A program made the translations under genes and the position numbers. Below the pieces are notes generated by a model. The model was not told where the DNA came from. It saw nothing but the letters and a program-made list of their open reading frames with translations, and did not search any database. From a virus, in IMG/VR virus record IMGVR_UViG_3300042894_002524, positions 1 to 64,000 of that record: a stretch of DNA of 64,000 bases. One strand, given 5' to 3'. Of this stretch, positions 145 through 58,736 are shown in pieces. Position 1 is the stretch's first letter. Each line of letters begins with the position of its first letter.

Positions 145-147
145 AGT

Positions 148-218
148 GCTTCCATTAGGATTCGAACCTAAAATAACGGATTAGAAGTCCGTAGTTATAT
201 CCATTTAACTATAGAAGC
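148..218 (-). tRNA. tRNA-Arg (anticodon UCU)
   Basis: A 71-nt cloverleaf can be folded by hand. The acceptor stem is GCTTCTA with TGGAAGC and holds one G-U pair. The D stem is GTTA/TAAC, the anticodon stem ACGGA/TCCGT encloses the loop CTTCTAA (anticodon TCT), and the T arm is TTAGG-TTCGAAT-CCTAA. No CCA is encoded. It reads AGA, a codon common in AT-rich phage genes but rarer in GC-richer actinobacteria, so it could supplement host decoding. The only tRNA I see in the window. Confidence 0.9.
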
Positions 219-302: not shown

Positions 303-971
303 TTATGAGAGATGTTTATATTTCTCGTATTCAGCAATGAGATATTTCCTGTATTTGCTCATAAACTTATTGTAAACAGAATCTGTATATGGTCCAAAGT
401 AACCATCTACAAACTTAACGCCAATAAGTTTTTGTATACCAAATACATACTTACTTCTTTCGCCAAGATGATATTTGCGAAGAATTGTTTTTGCAGGGAA
501 TTTTTTAAACAACACAGGATTTCCAACATTCTTTTTACAACCCCAGCCTCCAAAGCCAACTGGTTGTCTAAAGAAAGGTCTATTCTTTTGTCTATCTTCA
601 AATGTTCTGAACTCATTTTTGGTTTGATATCCCTGAGTTGAGATTCTGTTTGCAACAATAATTTGTTCATCTATTGTTGCAAGTTCTGGTTTGGATGCGA
701 ATTCTTTTCCACCATATCCACTCCAAGTTTGTTTATAAATACCTAAACCACCTGACCATTGACCTTTATCTTTCCAATCGCCTCCGGTTTCACATTGAGC
801 CATTCTATGCCAATATATATCCAAAGCTCTTGGCTTTCCAAGTTCACTGAAAGTTAGTTGAGGTATTTCCGTAGGAACTGTATTAACTTTTGCCGAGGCA
901 TTAGTTGCAACAATTCCTGTAATTAATGTTGCACATAACAACATGTTTTTTATTTTATTTTTAGTTTTCAT
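303..971 (-). CDS. Secreted Rpf-like muralytic enzyme (probable lysin)
   Basis: 222 residues. Residues 1-27 form a signal peptide: a basic start, a hydrophobic core and ASA before the likely cleavage site. Residues 52-145 match the resuscitation-promoting-factor transglycosylase fold: YWHRMAQCETGGDW with the probable catalytic Glu61, then GGLGIYKQTW and a DEQIIVANRI helix. Cys60 and Cys145 could form the disulfide of the family. Residues about 175-205 resemble a peptidoglycan-binding repeat (GIQKL...DGYFGPYTDSVY). Rpf enzymes cut actinobacterial cell wall and promote exit from dormancy. In a phage it may be the endolysin or a secreted wall remodeller. Start chosen by an AAGGAG site 4 nt upstream. 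Preceded by its own promoter, leader and hairpin; followed by the tRNA. Confidence 0.85.
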   Translation of the reverse strand: MKTKNKIKNMLLCATLITGIVATNASAKVNTVPTEIPQLTFSELGKPRALDIYWHRMAQCETGGDWKDKGQWSGGLGIYKQTWSGYGGKEFASKPELATIDEQIIVANRISTQGYQTKNEFRTFEDRQKNRPFFRQPVGFGGWGCKKNVGNPVLFKKFPAKTILRKYHLGERSKYVFGIQKLIGVKFVDGYFGPYTDSVYNKFMSKYRKYLIAEYEKYKHLS

Positions 972-996
972 TTTCGCTCCTTAAAACTTTTGGTTT

Positions 997-1039
997 TACG
1001 GGAAATTGATTGTATCTACAAACACATCAATTACCCGTA
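997..1039 (-). promoter_or_regulatory. Hairpin in the 5' leader of the Rpf-like gene
   Basis: Inverted repeat pairing 997-1010 with 1026-1039: ACGGG and AATTGAT on one side with ATCAATT and CCCGT on the other. There is one A-A mismatch and a 15-nt loop. No T tract follows on the minus strand, so it is not an obvious terminator. It lies 26 nt upstream of the start codon of the Rpf-like gene and downstream of its promoter, so a role in mRNA stability or translation control is plausible. Confidence 0.5.
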
Positions 1040-1089
1040 TTAGCGTATTGCTAAGGTTGCGAAACAAGATTACTGCAAATTTTATAATG

Positions 1090-1132
1090 CTACTTGTTCC
1101 ACAAATTATATGTCAATCTACATCACCTCCTT
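1090..1132 (-). promoter_or_regulatory. Perfect Shine-Dalgarno with 8-codon TTG leader
   Basis: At 1122-1132 the minus strand reads AAGGAGGTGAT, an exact 11-nt complement of the usual 16S rRNA 3' end. Five bases later a TTG at 1116 opens an 8-codon frame (MTYNLWNK) ending in TAG at 1090. The next real gene starts 120 nt further down. This could be a leader peptide controlling the Rpf-like gene or a ribosome-standby site. No other gene can use this ribosome-binding site. Confidence 0.45.
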
Positions 1133-1147
1133 AAAAGTAATCTATCT

Positions 1148-1177
1148 ATTATACCTTATAGGTAATAACAGGCACAA
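1148..1177 (-). promoter_or_regulatory. Sigma70-type promoter for the Rpf-like gene
   Basis: Minus strand: TTGTGC, an 18-nt spacer, then a consensus TATAAT at 1153-1148. It sits just after the stop codon of the preceding gene (1183) and upstream of the leader, hairpin and Rpf-like gene, so it would give a dedicated transcript for the enzyme and the tRNA. Confidence 0.65.
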
Positions 1178-6027: not shown

Positions 6028-6163
6028 TTCCTTCTTCTTTCTTTTGTTTATCTGTTTGTTTATTGTCTATTGATTTAGTTACGAATACCGGAACATGTAA
6101 TATATCCCGTACATCCTTGTTTGTTATTTTACCTTCAAAATTAAGATTCATATCATCAGGCAT
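6020..6163 (-). CDS. Small hypothetical protein, 47 aa
   Basis: Short polar protein starting MPDDMNLNFEG with a Lys/Gln/Glu-rich tail. Supported by a strong GGAGGG site 5 nt before the ATG and by overlaps with both neighbours: 8 nt with the WhiB-like gene and 8 nt with the next gene. No family recognised. Confidence 0.65.
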   Translation of the reverse strand: MPDDMNLNFEGKITNKDVRDILHVPVFVTKSIDNKQTDKQKKEEGNE

Positions 6164-6509
6164 TATTACCCTCCACGAATATTGTATTTTTGAATGCATC
6201 TTTTACTTGCAATACTGTTTTATTAACCATTGCTTCTGCTTGTGCTTTTGTTATTTCATTGGTTTTCAAATGATTTCGGATTGATGCTCTTTCTTTAGAA
6301 GAAAAAGAACCCCAAACCCCAAACCTTTCATCATTGTTAATCGAATACTGTAAGCAATCAGCAACAACAGGACAGCTTTTACAAAATGTTTTTGCTTTGG
6401 CTATGATCTTTTTTGTTTCTGCTGTATAAACAGTATCGGCATAGAATAAATGTGCTCCTTGTCCTAAACAAGCAGCTTCATCTAACCAATTAATTGTAAT
6501 TGTTGACAT
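6156..6509 (-). CDS. WhiB-like Fe-S transcriptional regulator
   Basis: 117 residues from the ATG at 6509, which follows the upstream stop by 1 nt; a start 36 nt earlier is also open. Four cysteines in Wbl spacing (Cys14, Cys43, Cys46, Cys52) would bind a 4Fe-4S cluster, followed by the turn GVWGS (residues 64-68) in place of the usual GVWGG. The C-terminal tail is moderately basic. Wbl proteins bind sigma-A and tune host promoters; mycobacteriophage TM4 carries one that blocks septation and causes superinfection exclusion. A similar job here is inference. The family is almost confined to Actinobacteria and their phages. Confidence 0.9.
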   Translation of the reverse strand: MSTITINWLDEAACLGQGAHLFYADTVYTAETKKIIAKAKTFCKSCPVVADCLQYSINNDERFGVWGSFSSKERASIRNHLKTNEITKAQAEAMVNKTVLQVKDAFKNTIFVEGNNA

Positions 6510-6510
6510 A

Positions 6511-6879
6511 TTAATTATCCCAGATTGGAATATTTGGACCATCATCTATCATTGGTTTAATAACTGAATTATCATAACCGGATAAATACATTTCTTTTTC
6601 ACCATTGATTGTCATCATCATCATACAAATATGAGAACATAATGCACTAACAACATCTAACGATTTCTCGTGGATTTCATTAGGGTTATCAATTGACATA
6701 TTGATCATATGCATAATAAAAGATGCACGACTTTCGTGATTATCAAAATCAGTTTCTTTGATGATTCTCGTAATCGTCATCATATGGTTTAGAAAATCTT
6801 GGTCTTCAATCATATAATCTGGAGCCTCCTTTCTTTCACTAGGTTTTTGTATATTATCAAAATCATCCATACTGAACAT
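6511..6879 (-). CDS. Hypothetical protein, 122 aa
   Basis: Unknown. Unusually rich in Met, with a cluster CMMMMTI and an Asp-rich C-terminus. Predicted helical and soluble. Ends 1 nt before the WhiB-like start, so the two are probably co-translated. Confidence 0.7.
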   Translation of the reverse strand: MFSMDDFDNIQKPSERKEAPDYMIEDQDFLNHMMTITRIIKETDFDNHESRASFIMHMINMSIDNPNEIHEKSLDVVSALCSHICMMMMTINGEKEMYLSGYDNSVIKPMIDDGPNIPIWDN

Positions 6880-15183: not shown

Positions 15184-15449
15184 TAATAAATTATTTATAT
15201 TTACTTATAGTTACGAATAAACATAAGAATAAAATTTCATATTCAAACTATTCGGAAACTATGAACAAAGTGTATCGCCAAAAATAATGAAATCAAACAT
15301 GGGCCAAGAAAATGTTAGAAAAAACTTTTATTGTGCGCCAGAAAGTAAATCGAGAAGATCGTGATAGTTAAGCTCTTTGTAAATAGTTTATTAAAGCCGG
15401 CGATCAAGGATCGGGAATGCTTGATATTAAATCATTTAATAAAGTTTGA
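15184..15449. other. Non-coding stretch before the small-gene block
   Basis: With the repeat at 15450-15495 this makes about 340 nt without a supported gene. I see a short inverted repeat ATCAAG/CTTGAT near 15400, but no T-tract terminator and no good promoter. Tiny open frames here lack ribosome-binding sites. It may hold a long leader or a small RNA; nothing more can be said. Confidence 0.5.
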
Positions 15450-15495
15450 ACGCCCCACTGTTTAGATTTACTTTTCAGCGAATTTTAGTATACAT
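15450..15495 (-). repeat. 46-nt intergenic repeat, copy C
   Basis: Third ungapped copy of the element at 3-48 and 8579-8624, 32-33 of 46 positions matching each. It shares GTTTA and TTTACTTTTC with copy A and GAATTTTAGTAT with copy B, but the hairpin is broken on one side. On the minus strand it contains TATACT (15492-15487) without a matching -35. Confidence 0.6.
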
Positions 15496-15525
15496 TTTTT
15501 GGCAGCTCAAGCCTTTTGTAATAAA

Positions 15526-35761: not shown

Positions 35762-36059
35762 CAGATGCCAATCTGTCGTGGGTTTCTTTTACTAAGTTGC
35801 GGAAACGGTTTTTTGCTTCCTCTTCAAACTTTACCTTATCAAACACTGTGCGTGATTCAATGGCAAAGTCAAAGATTAAAAATGGACCGTGATTTTTTTT
35901 AATATAATAGTTAACGGCTTTTTCAAGTATTTCACTATCATAATGTTTTGCCAAGGCATCCGCAACGGATTCTTGCCTTGGAGAGTCTGGTATAAAAAGC
36001 TTATGCGATTTCTCGCATGATTCTTTGAAGATCTCTATCAGTTCTTTTCCAGTTAACAT
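35751..36059 (-). CDS. Possible helicase loader, 102 aa
   Basis: Small helical, charged protein directly before the helicase gene (overlap 11 nt). That position and its small helical character fit helicase loaders or replisome organisers in many phages. No ATPase motif, so not a DnaC/DnaI type. Strong AAAAAGGA site before the ATG. The first 59 nt overlap the WhiB-like gene in another frame. Confidence 0.45.
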   Translation of the reverse strand: MLTGKELIEIFKESCEKSHKLFIPDSPRQESVADALAKHYDSEILEKAVNYYIKKNHGPFLIFDFAIESRTVFDKVKFEEEAKNRFRNLVKETHDRLASDEL

Positions 36060-36300
36060 TGGATTCCTTTTTGGACTTCTTCCATGTCTTTAACAGAAAC
36101 TCAAACTCTGAGATTCCACCATTGATACCATAGAATTCATCCGATTCCCAAGCTGAAAGAAAGCACTCTCTACGAACCGAGCAACGAGAACAACCTTGTT
36201 TTGCATAAGCAATGTCGTCTTTATCATAAGACCACCAAGTGTACTGTTTAGGATCGCTCGCACAGAGTGCATTTCTCTTCCAGTTACTTGCTAGTGCCAT
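36001..36300 (-). CDS. WhiB-like protein (second, diverged)
   Basis: 99 residues from the ATG at 36300. Cysteines 13, 37, 40 and 46 keep the C...CxxCx5C Wbl cluster, spaced more tightly than in the copy at 6156. The turn reads GINGG (58-62), so its usual Trp is missing; this may alter sigma-factor contact. The C-terminus is basic (WKKSKKESNVNWKRTDRDLQRI), suitable for DNA binding. Embedded in the replication operon, so it may switch transcription early. Overlaps both neighbours (17 and 59 nt). Confidence 0.85.
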   Translation of the reverse strand: MALASNWKRNALCASDPKQYTWWSYDKDDIAYAKQGCSRCSVRRECFLSAWESDEFYGINGGISEFEFLLKTWKKSKKESNVNWKRTDRDLQRIMREIA

Positions 36301-36490
36301 TATCCAGTTCTTGGAGTTTCGCTTCAATCTGAGCATCAATGGATGCCCATAGTTTCTCCCAAGCCTTCTCATCCTCTGTGGATGAAGCTTTGGTTCTTGC
36401 ACCGGCATCTAGCCTAAGTGATTCGTAGTTGCCAAGATTTTTGGTAACACCGATAGATGCCCAAATTTCAATTTCATTTTCCTGAGACAT
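36284..36490 (-). CDS. Small actinophage-type protein, 68 aa
   Basis: Contains VTKNLGNYESLRLDAG, a pattern I associate with small conserved actinophage proteins of unknown function found near replication genes. Acidic, helical C-terminus. Strong AAAGGAG site before the ATG. Overlaps the next gene by 17 nt. Confidence 0.7.
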   Translation of the reverse strand: MSQENEIEIWASIGVTKNLGNYESLRLDAGARTKASSTEDEKAWEKLWASIDAQIEAKLQELDNGTSK

Positions 36491-46832: not shown

Positions 46833-49800
46833 TTACATTCCCCTGTTTATACCATTATAAGTTCTAACGACTCTTGATTCAAGACCGGCAGCTTTTTGGT
46901 TATTTGGGACAACCTTAATGTTGTAGTCTTTCATCATTGATTCAAACCACTGGTCTTCACCGATAAAGTTGTCAACATAGAAGTTGTAGTTCTGAGTAGT
47001 TTCACTCTGGCTATGACTGGTTACGCTCATGTTGAGACCAGAAGCGCTTGGCATTTGTGGCTTAGGAACATTGAATGATGGGACACCATGCTTGAGACCA
47101 TTCAATTGAGTAAGAAGACCAAGACCAAGATTCTGGACAGCCTTTGAGCTAATTACATATTCTCCACCGTGAAGGATTGCAGGAACACCCTCTGTTGAAT
47201 ATCCGGGAACAACTCCGCCAACAGCTCTCTTAATCATTCCGCCCATAAACTTCTTCTGGACACCAACACCACTGAATAGACCGAGAGCTTTTGCTGTGGA
47301 TGGTCCAAGGTTTCCATCGTTATTCCCGCCAACAGGATATTTCTTTTGGAAGCTCTTCAGAGCAGCAACTGTTCCTGTACCCATTTTCGTTGAATTAACA
47401 TCAAATCCTGTATAGCCATAGAAAGCGAGAGCCGCTTTTGCGGATTTAATATAATCATTAGAGTCATTAAGCTTAAATAATCTATCTTTGCCAGCTAATG
47501 CTTCAAATGCAGTTTGAGTGAGACCGAGCGGACCGAATCCTGTTGGTGCTGTCGGACCAGTTACCCCTGTTGCAGGTGATGTAGCCGAACCACCTGATGG
47601 AGCAGTTCCTCCACCTGTATTCTTAAGCTCTTCCGCTGCGTCAGCAATTGCCTTAGTAATTGCCAAACCTTTAAGTTCATCATTAATTGCAGCCACAACT
47701 TCAGCAAATGCAGAGCTTGCATCAGTCTTCATCTTCATGAATTCAGCACGAACGGCTGCTGTTGCGTTAGCAATTGCTGATGCATAGATTCCCGCAGCGC
47801 TCTTTGGATTTGATGCACTTGGGTCGGCAAACTCTCTTGCAATACCCGCAAGCAATTCTTGACCATCATTGTATGCAGGAGCCACAACGGTCGTGAAACC
47901 TGTTGTGTAAACGGTTCCAAGATTGCTCATCATTCCATTGGTGATACCAAGCATCGTTGCCGGGTCGGTTGTTCCAGTGTCGAGACCATATTTAGCAGCA
48001 GCACCTGCAATAAGAGCATCCATGCTTGATGTAAAGAACCCAACAGTTGGAGCAGTGTTGTTTGCGATTAATGTTGGGAGGGCATTGTAATACCCTTGGA
48101 AAGCAGCTTGCATTCCAGATGATGTGAGGTCAGCTCTAGCCTTCAGCTCATTAAATTGAGTTGTAAGTTCAGCTGCTGTGAGTGTTCCATTCTTGCCAAT
48201 GTTTTCAATAAATGTTTGGAAATCTTCAAGGTCTTTATCAAACTGATCAGAAGCAACTTGCTTTTGGTTTTCAATAACCTTCTTGGCTGCTTCAACATTC
48301 TTAGCCTTCGCTGCAGCCTGTGCATCTTTTGCATTCTTTTCTGTTTCCTTATTGAACTCTTGTTGATTCTTTGCTTCTTCAAGCCCCAATGTACGAGCGT
48401 CATCAATGCGACCCTCATAGATTGCCAAAGCACGATTCTTAAGATAGGAGTCACGCTGAAGCGCTCTTTCGGCAATACGAAGTCTTTCATCCTCTTGCTT
48501 TTGCTTCTCGGCGGTGAGTTCAGCATCTGCTGCAGCAAGTGCATCAATGGCTGCAATTTGGTCATCAAAGAATTTGAGGGATTGGTCTTTCTGCTTTTCA
48601 AGAGCTTTTGTAATTTGATCTTTGAGTTTTCCAAGCGAATCAGAAAGGTTTGAAATAACTTTGTCGTAGAAGTTGTCTTTAAGAGACTTAATTCCTTCAC
48701 CAATAGCGTCAGCAATTGCCCTTCCAGCTTCATTGGCTGCAGATGGATCTTTAGCGACATTTTTAACAGCATCCTTGAGTGAGTCACCAATCTTCTCCTT
48801 GATGTCATTGCCATCAACAAGACCTGCAAGCCAATCTACAATGCCGTTACCAGCACCTGCAATTGCATCACTAAACCCGCCAATGAAAGCATTTGCAGTA
48901 TCTGCAGCTATATCAACAGAACCAAGGAGTTTATTTTGAATCCCCTGAACAACATTCATGACAGCATCGCCAACACCATTCAGGCTGCTTACGCCCTTAA
49001 TAAGTGCCCCACTAATACCCCTTACTAAGCCAACAGCTTTGTTTTGAAGACCACTAATTCCGTTTTCAAGCGGGGTAAAGATGGCATCAATTCCACTTTC
49101 AAGTTTTGCTGTTGCTGCTCCGCCAACACCTTCTACAGCATTGCTCGCTTTTTCAAACCCATCAGCAACGCTATAAAGAGCATCTTTGAGTTTTCCACCA
49201 ATACCCCATAGACCAGCAAGTTTGTCGCCAATTCCACGCATTAGACCAGCAATTAATGAGCCAATCATTCCAATTCCCTTGCCAACACCTGCTGGAAGTT
49301 TTGCCCAAATACTGATGATTCCCTTCACAACAGCAACGGTACCTTTGACAATTCCAAAGAATATTTTAATAACAGCAATAACCATTTCTGTAGCAATCTT
49401 TATTGCTGTTGTTTCAAGAAGAACAAAAAGTTCAATGATTTTATCAATAATGAATACATAAGCTTTTACAATTGTGAAAACAAGATTGATGACACCTTTT
49501 ACCATGTAACGAATAAGATTGATGACACCAATTACTAGCCATTCAAAGAGTTGAACGATTAATTCAACCACCTTGGTTACAGCCTTAATTAATAAACTAA
49601 GCATAGGGAGGACCATCTTGAGAAGACCCTTTAGCGCATTGACTATAGCTTTGAGCATCCCCTTCATAGCACTGACCATTGCCTCTTTAGCTTTGTCTCC
49701 ACCGCCACGGAAGAAACTGACAATAGCCATGACAAATTTAACCAAGTTTGAAACAAAACTAAAGATAGCTCTGATGATCATTGAAAAACCAGAAAGCATT

Positions 49801-52800
49801 GTATAAATAGCTGGAAGAATATATTTCGTAAAGAAAGCTTGGAAAGCCACTGCGAACTTACGAGTAGCCTCGGCGACCTTTGTTACAACAGTTGCAATAT
49901 TGCCTGTTGCTTCTCCGCTACTTTCTGCTCCACCAAATAATGATGCAAAGAAGTCAAAGAATGCTGTCTTGAGCATATTGACAACAACCATAACTGCAGC
50001 AAAAGCTTTCTTAAAGTTTTCTGCAACACCAGTCGTCTTATCACCGTATGCACTGAATGTCTTCTTCAAAAGGAAGATTGCTCCGACAACGAGTAGAATT
50101 GGGATAGTTACTCCGAAGAATGCACCCTTTGTCTTAGTCAAGAGTCCAATCACTTTATTCAACGGTCCCTGCAGAGCCATACCAGCAGGACCAAGTTGAT
50201 AGAGCATCATTGAAGACATTGACCCGGCAGCGGTTCCAAGACCACGAATTCCGCCCATTACGCCTTTTCCGAGTCCGCCCTTCATTCTACCGAACATTCC
50301 CTTGCCTCTTTGCTCAGTCATCATTCCGGTTGTCGCATCAGTTGTTTGAGTAACGCTTCTTCTAAAGAGACCGCCCTTCTTTGTAGCAATAGCATTTCCA
50401 GCAGCATCTGTTCCTTGAGGAACAAAAGTACTTCCTCCGACAAACATTGTTTTTACTCCACGAACAGGAGCCATTGCTGCTTTTCCAATTGCTCCGCCAG
50501 CCATTTTCGCTCCAGCTACTGCAGCTGAGCCTGCAGACTGTGCAAGCTTGATTGCGCCTACTTTGATACTAGAGGCTGCTGCAACAAGACCAGCACCTGC
50601 CTTGAACAACAGATCCTTAGAGTTGGTAAGACCAGTTGAAGCCATCGCAAGAGCTTGTTTTGGATTAGTAAATGCAGTTTGAACAAACTTTGCAGCAATC
50701 TGACCAGAGGTTAATAGGGCTTGACCTCCCATTGTCATAGCACTTCCCAGTTTCGTTAAACCCTTCTCAAGGGTTATAGCAAGCGTGATAATTGCAGCAC
50801 CTGTGTATGTTGTATTAAAGAAGGCAATGCTATCAAGTTTTGCAATTCCAGCACGAACACCCTTCATTGCAAACTTGTGAGCTTCAATCAGACCAGTTGT
50901 AAATACAATTGGTACTCTAACAGGGAGGAGGGTAAGCTCTCTAGTTACCTGACCAGCAATCTTCAATCCTTCAATTGATTTTTTCTTTGCAAAATTCATT
51001 GCAGATTTAATCGGTGGACCGTATGTTTTAGCAATTGCCTTTAGAGTATCAATACTTGGATTAATGGCTTGTCTAAATTGCGATGGCAATTGACTTTGAG
51101 TCAGTCTTGCAATATTGCGATTTGGTCTGTCTGTAGCTCTTGTCTCTTTAGCGATGACTCTTGCATCTTTTTCCGCAATCCGAGACTGACGACTTGTTAC
51201 TTGAAGATTTCTATCAGCGATACGACCAAAAGTTGTACGGCGAGCTTCGCCCATGTAATCTCTTGCCTTATAGACATTTTGATCACCAAACCTCTTTGGC
51301 GACACTCTCTTGGCAACAGACTCTAATGCACCACCAATTGAACCTAATGCACTACCAATCACCTTCACTTGCTTAATTGGGTTAAACATAACATTCGCTG
51401 TCTTTGCAATAGTTTGACCAGTAAACTCTTCTCTCGTTAGAGGGATTCTATTACGACCAGCGCTTGGTCTTGGAGGAATAGGTGTTGCATCAATCAGTTT
51501 CTGAACTCTGTCTGACCTATTTGCTACATCCATCGCTCTACTACGCTCACGAATTGCTTGACTTAATGCAACATTGCTTCTAATTCTTTCCGCCATAGCT
51601 GCTGTCTCAGCTTCCATTGTTGCTTTTATTGCAAGTCTTTCTGCAATCATTTCACGGAGATTAACTCTGGCTCTTGGCATTTCAATTGGTGTTGTACCAA
51701 CTGTTCCAACCGCAGCAGCAGCAGCTTTTGCCTGCGCAGCTGCCCTTCTTGGGCTTTCTTTAGCAGCATTGAGCATAAGCATTGGTTTAGAAGGAGGTGC
51801 AGGGTACACAGGGGCAGTTGCGACAGGTGGTTTTGGAGCAACTGGTGGAGCAGGGGCAACCGGGGCTACCTTGACTGTATCTGCAACAGCCTTTACTTTT
51901 TCTGCTTCTTTTACTAATTTTTCTTGGATGATACGATCAAGATACTTCAGAGCATCTGTAATATTTCCACCGGTTATGAAAGCAAAATCTTTTGCAATCT
52001 GGGCACCATGAACGGATCTTACCAATTCCTGAATACCAGAAAGCATGGATTGGACTTTCTTAGCAGTTCCTGATGACGCTAATCTAATATTTTCAGCAAT
52101 AGAATCTGCCACTGCTTTAGTGTTAATAGCTTGAGAGTTAATTTCATTAATATATGGCATTGAGTAAGGAGTGCGGACAGCAACAGCTGGAGTTGCGTCT
52201 GTTGCTTTTGGACCAGCAACTCCAGTTGTAGGTGATGCAAGAGGTGAAAGTTTTACTCCAGAAGCAATAGCTGCAAGACGAGGGTTCGCAGCAGCATTTG
52301 CTGAAATTGTTACCGCCTTAGCTGCATCTGCGATTGTTTTTTCAACAGCAACAGTCAGATTCTTTTCTGCTTCTACAACTTTTGCAGTTTCGTCAGCAGT
52401 TGCACCGACAGCTTTCCCACGGAGACCGCTTGCTTTTGGCTCTTCTTTTGAACCCCTTGCTGATTCGTAAACTTTACTTGCTGCAACAGAAAAAGGTCTT
52501 GCTGTCCCTGTTGCAATTTCTCTCAGTAAAGCATCAGCCTGTCTTAATTGAGCTTCTGTGAGTCCATTATTCTTTAAATAAACTTCAAATGCGCTAAGTA
52601 TTTTTTGAATAATAACAGATGTCTCTTGACCCTCAAGACCAGCCTTTTGAGCCAATCTGTTAACTTGTGTAGCAAAGGTTGCTGAATCTTCCGATACGGA
52701 ATTTGCAATAGACATGAAATTTTGAATCTGTGTTGCTCCAAGATTACCGATGACATTACCGGGTTGTGCCGTTACTGGTGCTTTAGGTTTACCAACACTT

Positions 52801-55800
52801 GCACCGGCAGCGGTTGCTGCTGTTGTTGTAACAGCATCTTTTGCAGCATTGATTGGAGCAATGGCTTCGGTTACAATTGCTTTTTCAACAGCAATGCCCA
52901 TTTCTTTAAGTTTCTTTATTAGATTAGCAACGACAACTTCTTTCTTGCCCTTACCTCTTCCTTCAATCGCAAAGGCTCTACCAATATACTCAAGAGTCTT
53001 GGTTTCAAATTTCATAAAGTCTATTGCAGCTTTATTTTGAGCAATAATTTGAGACTTAATTTGTTCAGCAAGAATTTTTTGGTCAGCTGATTCAAGACCA
53101 AAACCATACGCTGCTTTATTTGCTGGTGCAGATGCTGGTTTTGCAGATGCTGGCTTTACAGCAGCTCCGGGCTTAAGGTTCTGGAATCTTGCAATAGTAT
53201 CTTGGAAGGCTTTTTCAACACCTTTATTTGCAACATCTCTGGCAAACATAACAAGTCTCTGGAATAGAGCTTGTACCTCTCCGCTATCTTGAAACTTAAC
53301 AGCCTGAAGTTGCTTCAGCGTTTCTGCTGGTTTAGCAAGTGCTTGTTCAATAGTAAGACCAATCTTGAGAAGCTCCTGTTTAAGAAGAGCCAAGTCGTCA
53401 GTTGCTTGAAGACCAGCATTGGATGCAACTTCAGCAAGACCCTTACCTTGAATCTTGAGTGTCTGGTAGAACTGATCAAGAACAGCAGTCGGAATTTGCA
53501 ATGTTGCTGAGAGTTGACTGTTAATATTTCCAAGAGTTGTTGCTCCAGTTGGTACACCAGCACTCAATGATTTAGGTCTTACTGCAGCAGAGATATCTGG
53601 AGCGACTGGCTTAGGAGGAAGCCCGCCCTTTGCTGGGTCATAAGCATTGATGCGAGCTATATCATCTTTTGCTGCTTTTGCTGCAGCCTTGGCTTGTTCC
53701 GCTTTCTTCTTGGCATCTTCTAGTCTTGTAGTGAGTTCATCAATTGCATTTTTCTTACCGCCCGGAATGCGTTTCTTTGACTCAGTAACTTCTTGAATCT
53801 GAGTTTCTAAATTTTTGACAGCTCTTTTTGCACTTCTTGCACTATCATTTGCTGCTTTAATCTGTTCGTTAAGAGATTGAAGATTCTCAGCTTGCCCCGC
53901 AAGGAACTGCTCTTTAGACATGAATCCCCTCTTTATAGGAGAGGATTGTACTGGTTCGACTTTTTCGGGCTTTACGCCTAGTTTCTTAAGAGCAGCTTCT
54001 TGTTGTTTCGCAAGACGATCTGCCTCTTGTTTTGCTGCAAATTCAGCATCCCTTGCTGCTTGCGCAACTCTTCTTTTTTCTCTTTCAATATAGTCCGGTT
54101 GTTGAGTGACTGCTTGTCTTAGAAGTTCAATTCCAGCTTTTCTCTTTGGTCTAAGAGCAACCCTTCTTGCTTGACGATCCTTTTCTTCTGGATCGTTTCT
54201 GCTATAACTGGGTCTTGTAACCTCTCTTCTCTCCCTGAGTTCCTCAGTCGGATCACCTTTAGAATCTCTTCCTCCATAAACAAGACCCGTGTATCTTTCG
54301 CCTGTGCGCTTAGCTCTCGCTCTAGCAGTAGTACTGCCGAACGGCATCCCCTTACCTTTCGCACCGGCAAAAGGTACACCACCGCTGGAGGCGATTTGTT
54401 GTTGTGCATTATTAAATGCTAAATTTGCAGACTGCCTGACGCTCTGAAGCTCAGTGTTTATCAAATCAGTTGTTCTTTTTAGCTCCGAAATAGCCCTCTG
54501 AACATCAGACATCTTTCTTTTTTCAGAAAGAATTTTAATCTGAAGAACACGAGCCAATGATAGGTTTCCAACCTTTGCTGCCCGAGATTCTTGAGCAACA
54601 AGATCATCAATCTTTCCTTTAATAACTCTTGCTTGATCGGCAAGAATCTTTATTTTATCTTTAAGGATTTGTCTTTCTTTTTCAAATTCTGTCACTTGAG
54701 CAACAGATTCTTTTGCAACTGCAATATCTTCAGGTTTAATTGCGGTAACAGGTTTGTACTTTATATTTCCTACTGATGAACTAACAGCCTCATTGAAATT
54801 TTTAGCATAAAATGGACTTGTTTTAGCTGATGTTCCAGTAAATGCAGCCCCAACTTTTGCATCAGGAGCAAGAGCTTTCCCAGCAACACCAGTTTTAATA
54901 GCACCAGCAATTTTGCCCAAGGTGCTGAGATTCACCTTGATAGCTTCTCCTTCTTTGTTAACAAGAGAATCAAGTTGACGCAACTTCACTGGAACATCTT
55001 GTCCGAGAATTGTAAATAATTTAATTAGTGAATCTTTTGTTAGAATAGCACTCTTTGCTGTTCCCTCAAGATTGAGGAGTTTTTTAATTGACGCACCAGC
55101 AGCCTCAAGATCAACAGTTGCTTTATTTGGACCAGAAACTGCTCTGCCAAATCCGTCAACCGCTGCGTAATCTCGTTGCGCCGTACTCACTGCTGGAGTG
55201 ACTGCTGGCTTCTTGGTAGTACCCTTTGGTCTTCCACGAGTCTTCTTTGTGTCAGCAACAATCGCTTCTGCAACGGTTTTTTCGCCTTCTGCAACGGCAA
55301 TATCAATAGCAGCAGGGATTGGTCCAGCAGCTTTTGGTCTTCCACGACCTCTCTTTGCTTTCTGCTTGACATCTGTTGCAACCGTTTCTTCCGCAGTGGC
55401 TGTTGCTGCTTCAATTGCAGCAGGAATTGGGCTTGCTGCTGGGGCAACTGGCTTCTTACCGATAGACACCATGACTGCTTCCGCAACAGCATGCATTCCC
55501 TTATCAATTGCTGGTTTGAGAATATCTCCACCTGCAGGTATCTCAGGCATCGTGGGCTTCATGGCATTCATCATTGCCATTGGGTTCATGAAGTTTGCAG
55601 GAAGTCCAGATCTTACATTAAGTTGTGGCTTAAGAGCGCCAACAACGCTTTCCGTAGAAAATAGTTTTTTCTTTAAGGCATTTTTATATTGCTTTTCTGC
55701 AAGCTTTCTTTTTTCTTTTTCAGCTTTAGCAAGAATTTTAGCTGTTTCTTTTGCCTCAGCCTCAAGTTGTTTTGCTTCTTTTTCAAGTCTAGCTTTTGAA

Positions 55801-58736
55801 GCAGCAAGCTCTTCGTCTGATAGATTTGACAAGTCCACAGCTGTAGCAGCAGCACCTGTTGGAGAAGGTGTTCCTGTTGCAGTTGTAGGCTTTTGTCCAA
55901 GTGTTACCGGAGTTACGACAGCGCCTGACAATCCTGCGGGCGGTGCATTGGTTGGAGCACCGCTTGCAGCAGGAGATGGTCTTCCGGTTGCTGCTGCTTT
56001 TGCATTACAAACACAAGCTTGAATTGCTTGAAGAGTGGAAAGAATTTGGCTAAGGATATCTCTAAGTGTTGTAATACCCCCAATTGCTGATGTGATAGGG
56101 GCTGGAGTCGGAACTGCTGGTCCGTATGGTGCAGCATCACGGACACCACCAGTCGCAGGATCAATACCCGCTCCTGTCGCATTATTTGATGCTCCTCTGA
56201 TTCTAAGAAACTTTTGGGCTGCTTTTCTGAAAATGCTGGCTGTCTTTTTAGATTGCTCTTGAAGAAGTTCATTCACCATCTTGTTTGTTTGATAAATAGG
56301 ATCTAATGACCTTACATAATCTTTTGTTGCTTGATCAAGACCGTAGAAATTCTTTTGCGATTGCAAAGCCGTACCATCTAGAACGGCTTTACGACCAGCC
56401 AGTTGCTTGATATACTTACCACCCTTTGATTTCTCCTTAGCAGTAAGCTCTTCTCCCCGATCTTGCTTTGCAATAATTGGAGCAAGTTTTTCAAGTCTCT
56501 TTGCATCTTTTCTAGAGGTAAAGATTTTTCCATCTTGTCCAAATTTCCTAAAGTTACCGCCAATTCTTAATGCAATGTCGCTTGTCTTCATGAGAGACTG
56601 ATTTAGTTCAACAACATTTCCTTTAAACCGTTTGATACCGCCAGCACGAACATTGTTGAATATCGCACCAAGCTGTCCTACTGCACCAATAGTTCTCATT
56701 AGTGGTCCAATAAGAGCCAATAGAATTAGCATTACTCCCAGTATTTTCTTAATTGGGTCCGAAAGTTCTCTAAAGAATTTAGCTATTCTTTCAATGATCG
56801 GGTTAATCTGTTCAAGAATTCCTCCAAACACAGAGGTTAATTCACGAGCAATCGACTTAGCAGCCTCTCTTGCTTTACCATATTGAACTTCGACAGAGTT
56901 CCGTACACGCTCTAATTCGTCATTCTTATTTTCTTCGGTTAAAGACTTACCATACAACTGAGCGGTAAGAAGTTTTCCTGATTCTGTTTGAATATTATTA
57001 AACTCTTTACCGAGTTTATTCTGTCTTTCTTGCTTCTTTGTATTATCAAGCATAACTTTTCCACTGTATTCATATTGAGTTATTCCATTTTTTTGGAGAG
57101 CTTGATTTGCATTTCTAAGGTTAAAAAGAGCTACCTCTTGTCCAGCCTGAATTGCTAAAGCTTTGGCTTTGTAATTTCCATCTTCATCCATCTCTTGAGC
57201 TGCAGATGTAAGATTGGCTATTTCTTGAAGATTCCCAATTTTTATTTCATCTTCTTTTTTGGTAAATCCACGAATTTTTAATTGAGTATTTATAGCATCC
57301 TCAGCCTGTTTTGCCATCTTTTGCTCTTGAGTTCCAACTGCTTTTAATCTCTTATCATATTTATTCATTTGAGCAATGGCAACTTCCATTCTTGGACCCT
57401 GACGAACACCAAACAATTTAGAGAAGAATACTAATTGATCAGCTTTGCTAAGTTTTGCCTTAAGCAAATCATAGTTAGTAATAAGATCCATAAGTCCACC
57501 TGCACCCAAACCAAGAGATGGAGCAAATTCCTTGCCAATAGTATCGCTTAAATCTTTAAGCATGTCTTTGTTCTGTTTGGTTGTTGCAACCATTCTCTGC
57601 AAAGAAACTTTAATGGAGTTCGCTGAGGCTCCAACCTGAAATGATGCACCAATCATTGGTACAAGCAATGCAGCTGTTGTTTGCATATTTAAACCAAAAG
57701 AGGTTGCAGCAGCGGTTACTTCAGGAAAGGCTTCTGCAATGTTATTAAGAGATAGCGTTGTTTTGTTTTCAGCAAAGTTGAAGAAAGCAATTGCTCCATT
57801 AATCTCTTCTGTCATCTGCTTAAGCGACTTTTCACTCGTTACATCCAACCCCTTGTCTGTTCTAATTCTAGAAATAGTTTGGAACATAGCCTGAATTGTT
57901 GATTGAGCTTGTGTAATGTCAATATTACCCAATTTTTCAAATTCAACAGTTAATTCAGTCAATCTCGCCAATGACTCTGGTGCAGAAATACCAAGCTCAG
58001 CAAAATCTCCAGCAAGACCCTGCACAAGTTCTCTTGATACACCCCATTTACTTGTGATTTTGTCAAGACCATCTCCAAGGGTTTTTACTGCATACTGAAG
58101 GTCGGTATATCCTTTTGCAGCCCCAGCTGTGTTCTTGACAGAATCATCGAAAGAGTCAGCCATTAGTTTGGTTGAACGAATGACTTGTTTATCTAACGCT
58201 CTGAATGATGAAAACCCCATCCGGAAGAAAGCAACAAGTGGCAGGGTGAGACCCATAGACATGCGTGTTCCAGCGTTGGTCATTCTTTGCGAGAATGCAT
58301 TGAGTTGAGAACCCATTTGCTGGAAGTTCATTGCTCGCATTGAGTTTCCAATTTGTTTTTGCATGGAGTCCATAACTCTCAATTGAGTTATGTATGCACG
58401 GATAGGAACAGTATTTAACCCGGCGGATTGCAGACGACCAAGTTGTGAGTTAAGAGCATCAGCCTGTATACGGCTATTTCGAAAAGAAGCTGACAATGCG
58501 TGTTGACTTAACGCATTACCTTTTAGAGATGTATTCAGCGAACTAGAGTTTCTTGAAAGTCTAGATATCGCTGCACCAACAGCATTGGTTGCACCAACAG
58601 CACTTTGACTTGTTGCTTTTAAACCATTAAGAGAACGAACAGTGTTGCTTAATTGACCGTTTATGCGTTGAAGAGCAGCCGAAAGCCGGTCATTCATTTC
58701 GGCTCTAACTAGGATTTCGGCTTGTGCGTCACTCAT
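46833..58736 (-). CDS. Tape measure protein, 3967 aa
   Basis: Determines tail length and helps inject DNA. Residues about 170-350 match the phage tail tape-measure core (GFSSFRALDKQVIRST... QGLAGDFAELGIS). A hydrophobic helix at about 659-682 and a cluster near 2870-3150 could cross the host membrane. Two AT-hook-like motifs (GRGRPK near 1130, RGRPK near 1168) lie in a Pro/Ala-rich linker. Residues about 3740-3825 resemble a peptidoglycan-binding domain (LKSFQKKYPVGGNNDGNLGPST). The end has GGVVPGYSTEGVPAILHGGEYVIS, typical of tape measures. At about 0.15 nm per residue this predicts a tail near 600 nm. Confidence 0.93.
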   Translation of the reverse strand: MSDAQAEILVRAEMNDRLSAALQRINGQLSNTVRSLNGLKATSQSAVGATNAVGAAISRLSRNSSSLNTSLKGNALSQHALSASFRNSRIQADALNSQLGRLQSAGLNTVPIRAYITQLRVMDSMQKQIGNSMRAMNFQQMGSQLNAFSQRMTNAGTRMSMGLTLPLVAFFRMGFSSFRALDKQVIRSTKLMADSFDDSVKNTAGAAKGYTDLQYAVKTLGDGLDKITSKWGVSRELVQGLAGDFAELGISAPESLARLTELTVEFEKLGNIDITQAQSTIQAMFQTISRIRTDKGLDVTSEKSLKQMTEEINGAIAFFNFAENKTTLSLNNIAEAFPEVTAAATSFGLNMQTTAALLVPMIGASFQVGASANSIKVSLQRMVATTKQNKDMLKDLSDTIGKEFAPSLGLGAGGLMDLITNYDLLKAKLSKADQLVFFSKLFGVRQGPRMEVAIAQMNKYDKRLKAVGTQEQKMAKQAEDAINTQLKIRGFTKKEDEIKIGNLQEIANLTSAAQEMDEDGNYKAKALAIQAGQEVALFNLRNANQALQKNGITQYEYSGKVMLDNTKKQERQNKLGKEFNNIQTESGKLLTAQLYGKSLTEENKNDELERVRNSVEVQYGKAREAAKSIARELTSVFGGILEQINPIIERIAKFFRELSDPIKKILGVMLILLALIGPLMRTIGAVGQLGAIFNNVRAGGIKRFKGNVVELNQSLMKTSDIALRIGGNFRKFGQDGKIFTSRKDAKRLEKLAPIIAKQDRGEELTAKEKSKGGKYIKQLAGRKAVLDGTALQSQKNFYGLDQATKDYVRSLDPIYQTNKMVNELLQEQSKKTASIFRKAAQKFLRIRGASNNATGAGIDPATGGVRDAAPYGPAVPTPAPITSAIGGITTLRDILSQILSTLQAIQACVCNAKAAATGRPSPAASGAPTNAPPAGLSGAVVTPVTLGQKPTTATGTPSPTGAAATAVDLSNLSDEELAASKARLEKEAKQLEAEAKETAKILAKAEKEKRKLAEKQYKNALKKKLFSTESVVGALKPQLNVRSGLPANFMNPMAMMNAMKPTMPEIPAGGDILKPAIDKGMHAVAEAVMVSIGKKPVAPAASPIPAAIEAATATAEETVATDVKQKAKRGRGRPKAAGPIPAAIDIAVAEGEKTVAEAIVADTKKTRGRPKGTTKKPAVTPAVSTAQRDYAAVDGFGRAVSGPNKATVDLEAAGASIKKLLNLEGTAKSAILTKDSLIKLFTILGQDVPVKLRQLDSLVNKEGEAIKVNLSTLGKIAGAIKTGVAGKALAPDAKVGAAFTGTSAKTSPFYAKNFNEAVSSSVGNIKYKPVTAIKPEDIAVAKESVAQVTEFEKERQILKDKIKILADQARVIKGKIDDLVAQESRAAKVGNLSLARVLQIKILSEKRKMSDVQRAISELKRTTDLINTELQSVRQSANLAFNNAQQQIASSGGVPFAGAKGKGMPFGSTTARARAKRTGERYTGLVYGGRDSKGDPTEELRERREVTRPSYSRNDPEEKDRQARRVALRPKRKAGIELLRQAVTQQPDYIEREKRRVAQAARDAEFAAKQEADRLAKQQEAALKKLGVKPEKVEPVQSSPIKRGFMSKEQFLAGQAENLQSLNEQIKAANDSARSAKRAVKNLETQIQEVTESKKRIPGGKKNAIDELTTRLEDAKKKAEQAKAAAKAAKDDIARINAYDPAKGGLPPKPVAPDISAAVRPKSLSAGVPTGATTLGNINSQLSATLQIPTAVLDQFYQTLKIQGKGLAEVASNAGLQATDDLALLKQELLKIGLTIEQALAKPAETLKQLQAVKFQDSGEVQALFQRLVMFARDVANKGVEKAFQDTIARFQNLKPGAAVKPASAKPASAPANKAAYGFGLESADQKILAEQIKSQIIAQNKAAIDFMKFETKTLEYIGRAFAIEGRGKGKKEVVVANLIKKLKEMGIAVEKAIVTEAIAPINAAKDAVTTTAATAAGASVGKPKAPVTAQPGNVIGNLGATQIQNFMSIANSVSEDSATFATQVNRLAQKAGLEGQETSVIIQKILSAFEVYLKNNGLTEAQLRQADALLREIATGTARPFSVAASKVYESARGSKEEPKASGLRGKAVGATADETAKVVEAEKNLTVAVEKTIADAAKAVTISANAAANPRLAAIASGVKLSPLASPTTGVAGPKATDATPAVAVRTPYSMPYINEINSQAINTKAVADSIAENIRLASSGTAKKVQSMLSGIQELVRSVHGAQIAKDFAFITGGNITDALKYLDRIIQEKLVKEAEKVKAVADTVKVAPVAPAPPVAPKPPVATAPVYPAPPSKPMLMLNAAKESPRRAAAQAKAAAAAVGTVGTTPIEMPRARVNLREMIAERLAIKATMEAETAAMAERIRSNVALSQAIRERSRAMDVANRSDRVQKLIDATPIPPRPSAGRNRIPLTREEFTGQTIAKTANVMFNPIKQVKVIGSALGSIGGALESVAKRVSPKRFGDQNVYKARDYMGEARRTTFGRIADRNLQVTSRQSRIAEKDARVIAKETRATDRPNRNIARLTQSQLPSQFRQAINPSIDTLKAIAKTYGPPIKSAMNFAKKKSIEGLKIAGQVTRELTLLPVRVPIVFTTGLIEAHKFAMKGVRAGIAKLDSIAFFNTTYTGAAIITLAITLEKGLTKLGSAMTMGGQALLTSGQIAAKFVQTAFTNPKQALAMASTGLTNSKDLLFKAGAGLVAAASSIKVGAIKLAQSAGSAAVAGAKMAGGAIGKAAMAPVRGVKTMFVGGSTFVPQGTDAAGNAIATKKGGLFRRSVTQTTDATTGMMTEQRGKGMFGRMKGGLGKGVMGGIRGLGTAAGSMSSMMLYQLGPAGMALQGPLNKVIGLLTKTKGAFFGVTIPILLVVGAIFLLKKTFSAYGDKTTGVAENFKKAFAAVMVVVNMLKTAFFDFFASLFGGAESSGEATGNIATVVTKVAEATRKFAVAFQAFFTKYILPAIYTMLSGFSMIIRAIFSFVSNLVKFVMAIVSFFRGGGDKAKEAMVSAMKGMLKAIVNALKGLLKMVLPMLSLLIKAVTKVVELIVQLFEWLVIGVINLIRYMVKGVINLVFTIVKAYVFIIDKIIELFVLLETTAIKIATEMVIAVIKIFFGIVKGTVAVVKGIISIWAKLPAGVGKGIGMIGSLIAGLMRGIGDKLAGLWGIGGKLKDALYSVADGFEKASNAVEGVGGAATAKLESGIDAIFTPLENGISGLQNKAVGLVRGISGALIKGVSSLNGVGDAVMNVVQGIQNKLLGSVDIAADTANAFIGGFSDAIAGAGNGIVDWLAGLVDGNDIKEKIGDSLKDAVKNVAKDPSAANEAGRAIADAIGEGIKSLKDNFYDKVISNLSDSLGKLKDQITKALEKQKDQSLKFFDDQIAAIDALAAADAELTAEKQKQEDERLRIAERALQRDSYLKNRALAIYEGRIDDARTLGLEEAKNQQEFNKETEKNAKDAQAAAKAKNVEAAKKVIENQKQVASDQFDKDLEDFQTFIENIGKNGTLTAAELTTQFNELKARADLTSSGMQAAFQGYYNALPTLIANNTAPTVGFFTSSMDALIAGAAAKYGLDTGTTDPATMLGITNGMMSNLGTVYTTGFTTVVAPAYNDGQELLAGIAREFADPSASNPKSAAGIYASAIANATAAVRAEFMKMKTDASSAFAEVVAAINDELKGLAITKAIADAAEELKNTGGGTAPSGGSATSPATGVTGPTAPTGFGPLGLTQTAFEALAGKDRLFKLNDSNDYIKSAKAALAFYGYTGFDVNSTKMGTGTVAALKSFQKKYPVGGNNDGNLGPSTAKALGLFSGVGVQKKFMGGMIKRAVGGVVPGYSTEGVPAILHGGEYVISSKAVQNLGLGLLTQLNGLKHGVPSFNVPKPQMPSASGLNMSVTSHSQSETTQNYNFYVDNFIGEDQWFESMMKDYNIKVVPNNQKAAGLESRVVRTYNGINRGM

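Follow-up and report, generated by a model that had tools for sequence, protein, structure and literature searches.

An exported Rpf-like protein behind a conserved structured leader in a phage genome: a candidate auxiliary wall hydrolase

Introduction

What use would a phage make of an exported enzyme of the resuscitation-promoting factor (Rpf) type that is encoded apart from its lysis genes? The question is raised by a gene in a WhiB-encoding virus record of 89,827 bases (89.8 kb). The window, which is the whole stretch of DNA analysed here, comprises bases 1-64000 of that record, and nearly all of its genes are carried on the minus strand. An initial annotation had seen in this gene a phage-encoded Rpf enzyme with its own promoter that could lyse cells without a holin or stimulate resting hosts.

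Besides the WhiB regulator, the record encodes a terminase, a portal, a capsid protein, a DnaE-type polymerase and a 3967-aa tape measure protein. An actinobacterial host is usually marked by WhiB (PMC10202952, PMC6802176), and the major capsid protein and terminase of the record are about 50% and about 42% identical, respectively, to those of 130-kb Streptomyces phages; an actinobacterial host is well supported because of these two features. The surroundings of the rpf-like gene are small genes and tRNAs.

146-218, minus strand: tRNA-Arg(TCT), just downstream of the rpf-like gene
6156-6545: WhiB regulator

Three further elements of the window are recorded as separate observations. A possible second WhiB-like protein, judged by eye from its cysteine pattern, is encoded at 36001-36408 (minus strand); a PG_binding_1 domain (E 2.9e-8) lies at 47283-47456 (minus strand) within the tape measure gene (46833-58736); and the longest minus-strand stretch that lacks an ORF of at least 40 aa (15184-15525, 342 nt) is a possible non-coding element.

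A protein of the Rpf catalytic family

The reading frame and its parts are as follows.

306-971, minus strand: coding sequence of the Rpf-like secreted enzyme (222 aa), with an ATG start and the stop codon at 303-305
891-971, minus strand: predicted Sec-type signal peptide, residues 1-27, with predicted cleavage at ASA/K (sequence and heuristic)
789-791, minus strand: codon of the catalytic Glu61, aligned with the catalytic-motif Glu of RpfB and RpfC
537-821, minus strand: Rpf/transglycosylase domain, residues 51-145 (PF06737, AlphaFold2 core, Foldseek matches to RpfB/C/E)
561-629, minus strand: insertion within the Rpf domain, about 20-25 aa long, around QTKNEFRTFEDRQKNRPFFRQPV, missing in the bacterial Rpfs compared
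537-539, minus strand: Cys145 of GWGC, candidate disulphide partner of Cys60
306-494, minus strand: C-terminal tail with an unconfirmed PG_binding_1-like pattern, seen by eye only

That the open reading frame is real and that its product belongs to the PF06737/Rpf catalytic family, as first proposed, is confirmed by profile search and by structural modelling. Residues 51-114 match PF06737 with an E-value of 8.9e-14 and 52.4 bits against a curated cut-off of 27, and the cut-off of the NCBIfam RpfC equivalog is not reached (36.5 bits vs 200). In the PDB, sequence matches are limited to RpfB, RpfC and RpfE, apart from two chance-level matches to cytochrome P450 (E 0.06-0.4). An AlphaFold2 model built from an alignment of 38 sequences (an earlier one of 6 sequences gave a pLDDT of 35) has a pLDDT of 72-90 over residues 51-110 and 63 for the whole chain. 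In a Foldseek comparison, the 14 top fold matches of the model were all RpfB/C/E (rmsd 0.9-3.1 A, probability 1.0), the best-fitting chains superposing at 0.9-1.4 A across 57-59 residues.

The C-E-[STA]-G motif with the catalytic Glu is present, and Glu61, which had been singled out from the outset, lines up with the Glu of 'CEAGGNW' in RpfB and is invariant in 38/38 aligned phage proteins. Other invariant residues include Trp54, Cys60, Trp66, Trp143 and Cys145, and a disulphide would be formed between Cys60 and Cys145. Most pairwise comparisons give a dN/dS of about 0.1-0.25, and the values are mostly lowest in the core, a pattern which indicates that the gene is under purifying selection.

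The N-terminus, MKTKNKIKN-MLLCATLITGIVA-TNASA/K, has the appearance of a Sec/SPase-I substrate in a heuristic reading based on sequence and hydropathy, which agrees with the signal peptide proposed initially; of the 73 minus-strand ORFs in the window that are 60 aa or longer, only the rpf-like one has such an N-terminus by a stricter heuristic. The wall-binding-like repeat that had been placed at the C-terminus fared less well. A pattern resembling PG_binding_1 (QKLIGVxxDGYFGPxT) can be picked out by eye, and a Pfam search of the tail gave no match, to PG_binding_1 (PF01471) or any other family, even at E 10.

A structured leader RNA upstream of the gene

The 211-nt stretch ahead of the rpf-like gene, which is the third longest in the window without a minus-strand ORF, contains the following elements.

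977-982, minus strand: Shine-Dalgarno sequence AAGGAG, conserved in six phages
972-1130, minus strand: structured 5' leader RNA of 159 nt, conserved and covarying
1057-1104, minus strand: leader stem P1 with its loop, 12 bp (1093-1104 with 1057-1068), 95.8% of cells paired
1040-1054, minus strand: leader hairpin P2 (TTAGC/GCTAA), its stem invariant in eight sequences
997-1039, minus strand: leader stem P3, with five pairs changed on both sides (helices 4 and 5)
1148-1153, minus strand: -10 box TATAAT, a consensus match only

The promoter that had been assigned to the gene stands in part: a TATAAT or TACAAT box occupies the matching position in six phages, and a generic promoter scan gave no excess over shuffled sequences. 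Conservation of the leader is clearer. Between the window and its relative L007, the 159 nt of the leader are 78% identical, whereas identity at the four-fold degenerate sites of the gene is only 40%. With a five-helix structure, pairing reaches 92.8% on eight sequences as against 31-41% in slid controls, a comparison which is flattering because the structure was guided by the same eight sequences. Better evidence comes from compensatory counts: seven pairs are changed on both sides, which was reached by none of 500 shuffles (mean 2.8), and two of the pairs with compensatory change lie in P1. The leader is a candidate regulatory RNA. A conserved mini-ORF in the leader (AGGAGGTGATG...) was also considered and rejected, because reading frames and stops vary across the phages.

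A covariance model of the leader (R1) recovers all of its training members and detects no second copy in this record. The Rfam search gave no family match, and at E-values up to 10 it returned three unrelated matches of chance level. The model does not reach the leaders of a second group (L221, L223, L224 and L235), in which the proteins are 34-39% identical to the window protein and the longer leader, which has conserved stems too, shares the block GTTTCGCAACCT..GC..GCTAAT. As judged by eye, the first long stem, P1, can form in either group, and two compensatory changes distinguish the groups there. The case for kinship of the two leader types is weaker, because it is drawn from the shared block and the pairing of P1.

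The same type of leader and promoter also precedes a different gene. In L297, it stands ahead of an exported enzyme of the SLT type that has no Rpf domain. A scan of viral DNA for the shared block was loose, and matches were kept if an rpf-like gene lay downstream or if TTT preceded the block; among the matches listed, 13 were kept, comprising 10 with an rpf-like gene, the SLT case of L297, one (L345) that ran to the locus end and is the same phage as the rpf-bearing L009, and one (L353) that looked like chance.

Other upstream elements were seen in other relatives. In a different rpf group (L242, L251, L261, L270, L275, L284 and L288), a long GACCCATACCAAG...CTTGGTATGGGTC hairpin lies directly before the rpf-like gene, about 30-100 nt upstream of the start, and is followed in L270 by a U-run; it is a possible attenuator. 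Upstream of the gene in L227, L229, L234, L244, L247 and L271, UCCUU/UAUCC...GAAGGA could sequester the Shine-Dalgarno sequence, as read by eye.

Separate lysis genes in the same record

Two candidate lysis genes lie about 240 bp apart, amid structural genes.

record 71963-72499 (L011:7963-8499), minus strand: M15-type endolysin candidate, 178 aa, with SxHxxGxAxD and WxHxE motifs
record 72735-72983 (L011:8735-8983), minus strand: holin-like membrane protein, 82 aa, with a weak PHROG 443 match

The zinc motifs of the M15 candidate are conserved in its homologues (SxHxxGxAxD in 80/80 and WxHxE in 78/80), and 248 relatives occur in environmental viral contigs. It has no match in the PDB or INPHARED, and because its profile matches are weak (PF13539 at E 0.088 in 1/22; a PHROG 'endolysin' family at E 0.023), it is called only a probable M15-type endolysin. 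The 82-aa protein matches the holin family PHROG 443 at E 0.024 and matches a family annotated 'nuclease' better. Adjoining these genes, L011:9150-10823 (minus strand) encodes a 557-aa protein that has a signal peptide and includes a long stretch rich in Thr.

The rpf-like gene lies about 71 kb from the M15 gene, and in seven other linear records a standalone rpf gene is likewise about 45 kb or more from it; the initial view that the gene stands outside a lysis cassette therefore agrees with the position of the pair. A canonical endolysin is found in a lysis cassette with a holin and has no export signal, and the Rpf-like protein differs in both respects. The possibility that it is the endolysin of the phage was rejected after the M15/holin-like pair had been found. 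On present sequence evidence the gene is predicted to encode an extra exported wall hydrolase, and holin-free lysis, as initially suggested, is disfavored because a probable M15 endolysin is encoded beside a holin-like protein elsewhere in the genome.

Distribution and descent of the phage Rpf-like proteins

Close homologues (64-100% identical) occur in nine viral contigs, and a broader profile search matched 97 viral stretches, 80 of which were fetched; 38 proteins were aligned. In all, about 90 environmental viral contigs, presumably from fresh water to judge by their metagenome numbers, carry Rpf-like relatives, mostly with leader peptides and often with a second, SLT-type domain. PF06737 is matched by all 38 aligned proteins and SLT (PF01464) as well by 12 of them. 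An export-type N-terminus is found in 35/38 by a hydropathy rule, and the remaining three may have misplaced starts. Most phage relatives have the insertion of 20-25 aa (FRTLDDRLNNRPFF-like) ahead of the GWGC end, which the bacterial Rpfs compared do not have. Exported phage proteins with Rpf-type and SLT-type lysozyme-like catalytic domains in one chain were noted in L178/L224 and L179, the second domain of L179 being read by eye.

The best bacterial matches come from Acidimicrobiia and other Actinomycetota and show about 42% identity across the domain. In a tree, a long supported branch (100/99) parts the environmental phage Rpfs from the sampled bacterial Rpfs, among which the isolate phages Trina and BRock nest; no single phage clade is seen among the sampled Rpfs. 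The tree was built on 121 columns, and many of its forks are unresolved, so that branching within the phage set is unreliable.

Among 29 large records that share the M15 or the capsid gene, 12 contain PF06737 at E 0.001. In seven of these the gene is clearly standalone, in one the match is a weak 196-aa frame, and in four the domain falls within frames of 3000-5400 aa, the size expected of tape measure proteins. Because the other 17 have no match at this threshold, the rpf-like gene is dispensable or the records are incomplete.

A model for the role of the exported enzyme

The reading that we favor, which we regard as having about an even chance of being correct, is that the Rpf-like protein is an auxiliary exported muralytic enzyme acting with the endolysin. 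It is drawn from sequence features and from analogy with the Tgl protein of Kayvirus, the closest tested case. Transcription would start at the gene's own promoter, and the leader RNA would meter expression. The protein would be exported by the host Sec system, with cleavage after ASA and oxidation at Cys60-Cys145, and would then cut the glycan strands (MurNAc-GlcNAc) of the wall. Because the probable M15-type endolysin would cut peptides, the two activities would be complementary. Full damage would follow when a holin collapses the membrane potential, comparable with Kayvirus Tgl plus nisin, and earlier, a limited degree of cutting may help the wall to expand or the phage to be released or to spread.

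Domain swapping behind related leaders, with Rpf only (window), Rpf plus SLT (L221-type) or SLT only (L297), suggests that an exported, glycan-cleaving activity rather than Rpf identity is what has been kept, because the same leader can precede an SLT-type enzyme. A position close to the endolysin gene, such as that of tgl, would be easier to reconcile with a lysis role, but the rpf-like gene is placed among small genes and tRNAs.

A second possibility, which we consider rather unlikely, is that the exported enzyme acts on infected cells or their resting neighbors, remodelling the wall and thereby promoting growth, so that infection is completed or new hosts become available. The family of the catalytic domain is in line with it, as are the 5' RNA switches of bacterial rpf genes (PMC6009663), which the conserved structured leader of the phage gene parallels, and the increased expression of four host rpf genes on infection by phage WC1 (PMC10986025). 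The replacement of Rpf by SLT behind the same leader, however, implies that no signal specific to Rpf is required. Resuscitation by Rpf is itself thought to depend on muralytic activity (PMC1796659), and sequence therefore cannot separate it from wall cutting. A more elaborate form of this idea appears improbable: a phage-borne resuscitation factor would be under a new ligand-sensing leader RNA, which would respond to a state of the host (its growth, a second messenger or stress on the wall) by releasing an exported Rpf-like enzyme, and this would keep host cells, possibly neighbors, in growth or bring them into it. A ligand for the leader is speculation.

It is doubtful that the enzyme resides on virions or aids DNA injection through the wall of stationary-phase cells. 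Rpf-type domains do occur in tape measure proteins of mycobacterial and Gordonia phages, and a different motif, motif 3 of the TM4 Tmp, aids infection of stationary cells (PMC1796659); the weak Rpf-type domains in tape-measure-sized frames of sister phages point in the same direction. The present gene, however, is standalone, has an export leader and lies far from the tail genes, its product has no detectable tail or virion domain, and two sister records hold a copy of each kind, tape-measure-type and standalone. Least probable of all is that other phages are kept from injecting by changes that the enzyme makes to the infected cell's wall, since wall cutting would sooner aid than block injection, although the protein is exported, is encoded outside the lysis module and is present in some but not all relatives.

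What is new is the size and distinctness of the environmental family, the swapping of Rpf and SLT domains, and the leader RNA. A large environmental rpf family with a conserved RNA control region is not described in the literature searched, and no paper on standalone actinophage rpf genes was found in the open-access literature, outside which most subscription papers lie. In fresh waters, actinophages that encode WhiB are abundant (PMC6802176, PMC10914622), and the terms Rpf, resuscitation and transglycosylase are absent from the freshwater-actinophage papers searched. An exported Rpf-like family in about 90 viral contigs makes it possible to test whether hosts that grow slowly have their wall or their dormancy manipulated by phages, and the leader is a candidate new regulatory RNA over a potentially self-lethal wall enzyme, comparable with the leaders of bacterial rpf genes.

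Comparison with known systems

Actinobacterial RpfB, RpfC and RpfE have the catalytic domain, the C-E catalytic motif, the W-x-C end and export in common with the phage protein. The latter differs in being phage-encoded, in its insertion, in having CETGGDW..GGLGIY instead of CESGGNW..GGLQFS, and in that no LysM or other known accessory domain was found in it. In bacteria, rpfA is controlled by ydaO and rpfB by an RNA switch (PMC6009663), so that a structured 5' leader precedes an rpf-type gene there as it does here; having no Rfam family match, the window leader differs from ydaO and other known riboswitches.

Among phages, the initial statement that actinophage lysins are usually different was too strong. 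PF06737 domains have been published in mycobacteriophage tape measure proteins and in eight cluster A LysA proteins (PMC1796659, PMC3314691), which are of the same family but are virion proteins or cassette endolysins rather than standalone exported proteins. Standalone versions with a leader peptide also occur in phages of Rhodococcus (Trina gp44, Weasels2, Peregrin, Grayson and NiceHouse) and Streptomyces (BRock gp43, LuckySocke and Alone3), where they are annotated 'transglycosylase'; in public records generally, standalone phage rpf genes are labelled either so or 'hypothetical'. The proteins of Trina and BRock resemble the window protein in length (about 190 aa), signal peptide and PF06737 domain, and BRock has a separate annotated endolysin (gp40), as the window phage has a separate endolysin candidate. 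Unlike the window protein, their Rpf domains are canonical, fall among bacterial Rpfs and have no insertion, and BRock has a LysM domain. Genes of the Trina/BRock type and the present family are probably separate captures from hosts.

The closest tested parallel is Tgl of the Kayvirus phages of Staphylococcus. According to the part of its description consulted here (PMC7150955), Tgl has a signal peptide and a host-type early promoter and digests murein, lyses S. aureus only with nisin, which mimics a holin, and is regarded by its authors as a second endolysin, LysK being the separate late endolysin. It differs from the present protein in sequence family, in host phylum and in the position of tgl near lysK, and that part of the paper does not mention a leader RNA, which the window gene has. 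As far as the same source describes it, Tgl is a secreted Rpf/SceD-type transglycosylase that is made from its own promoter in addition to the main endolysin, an arrangement that appears to be the same here.
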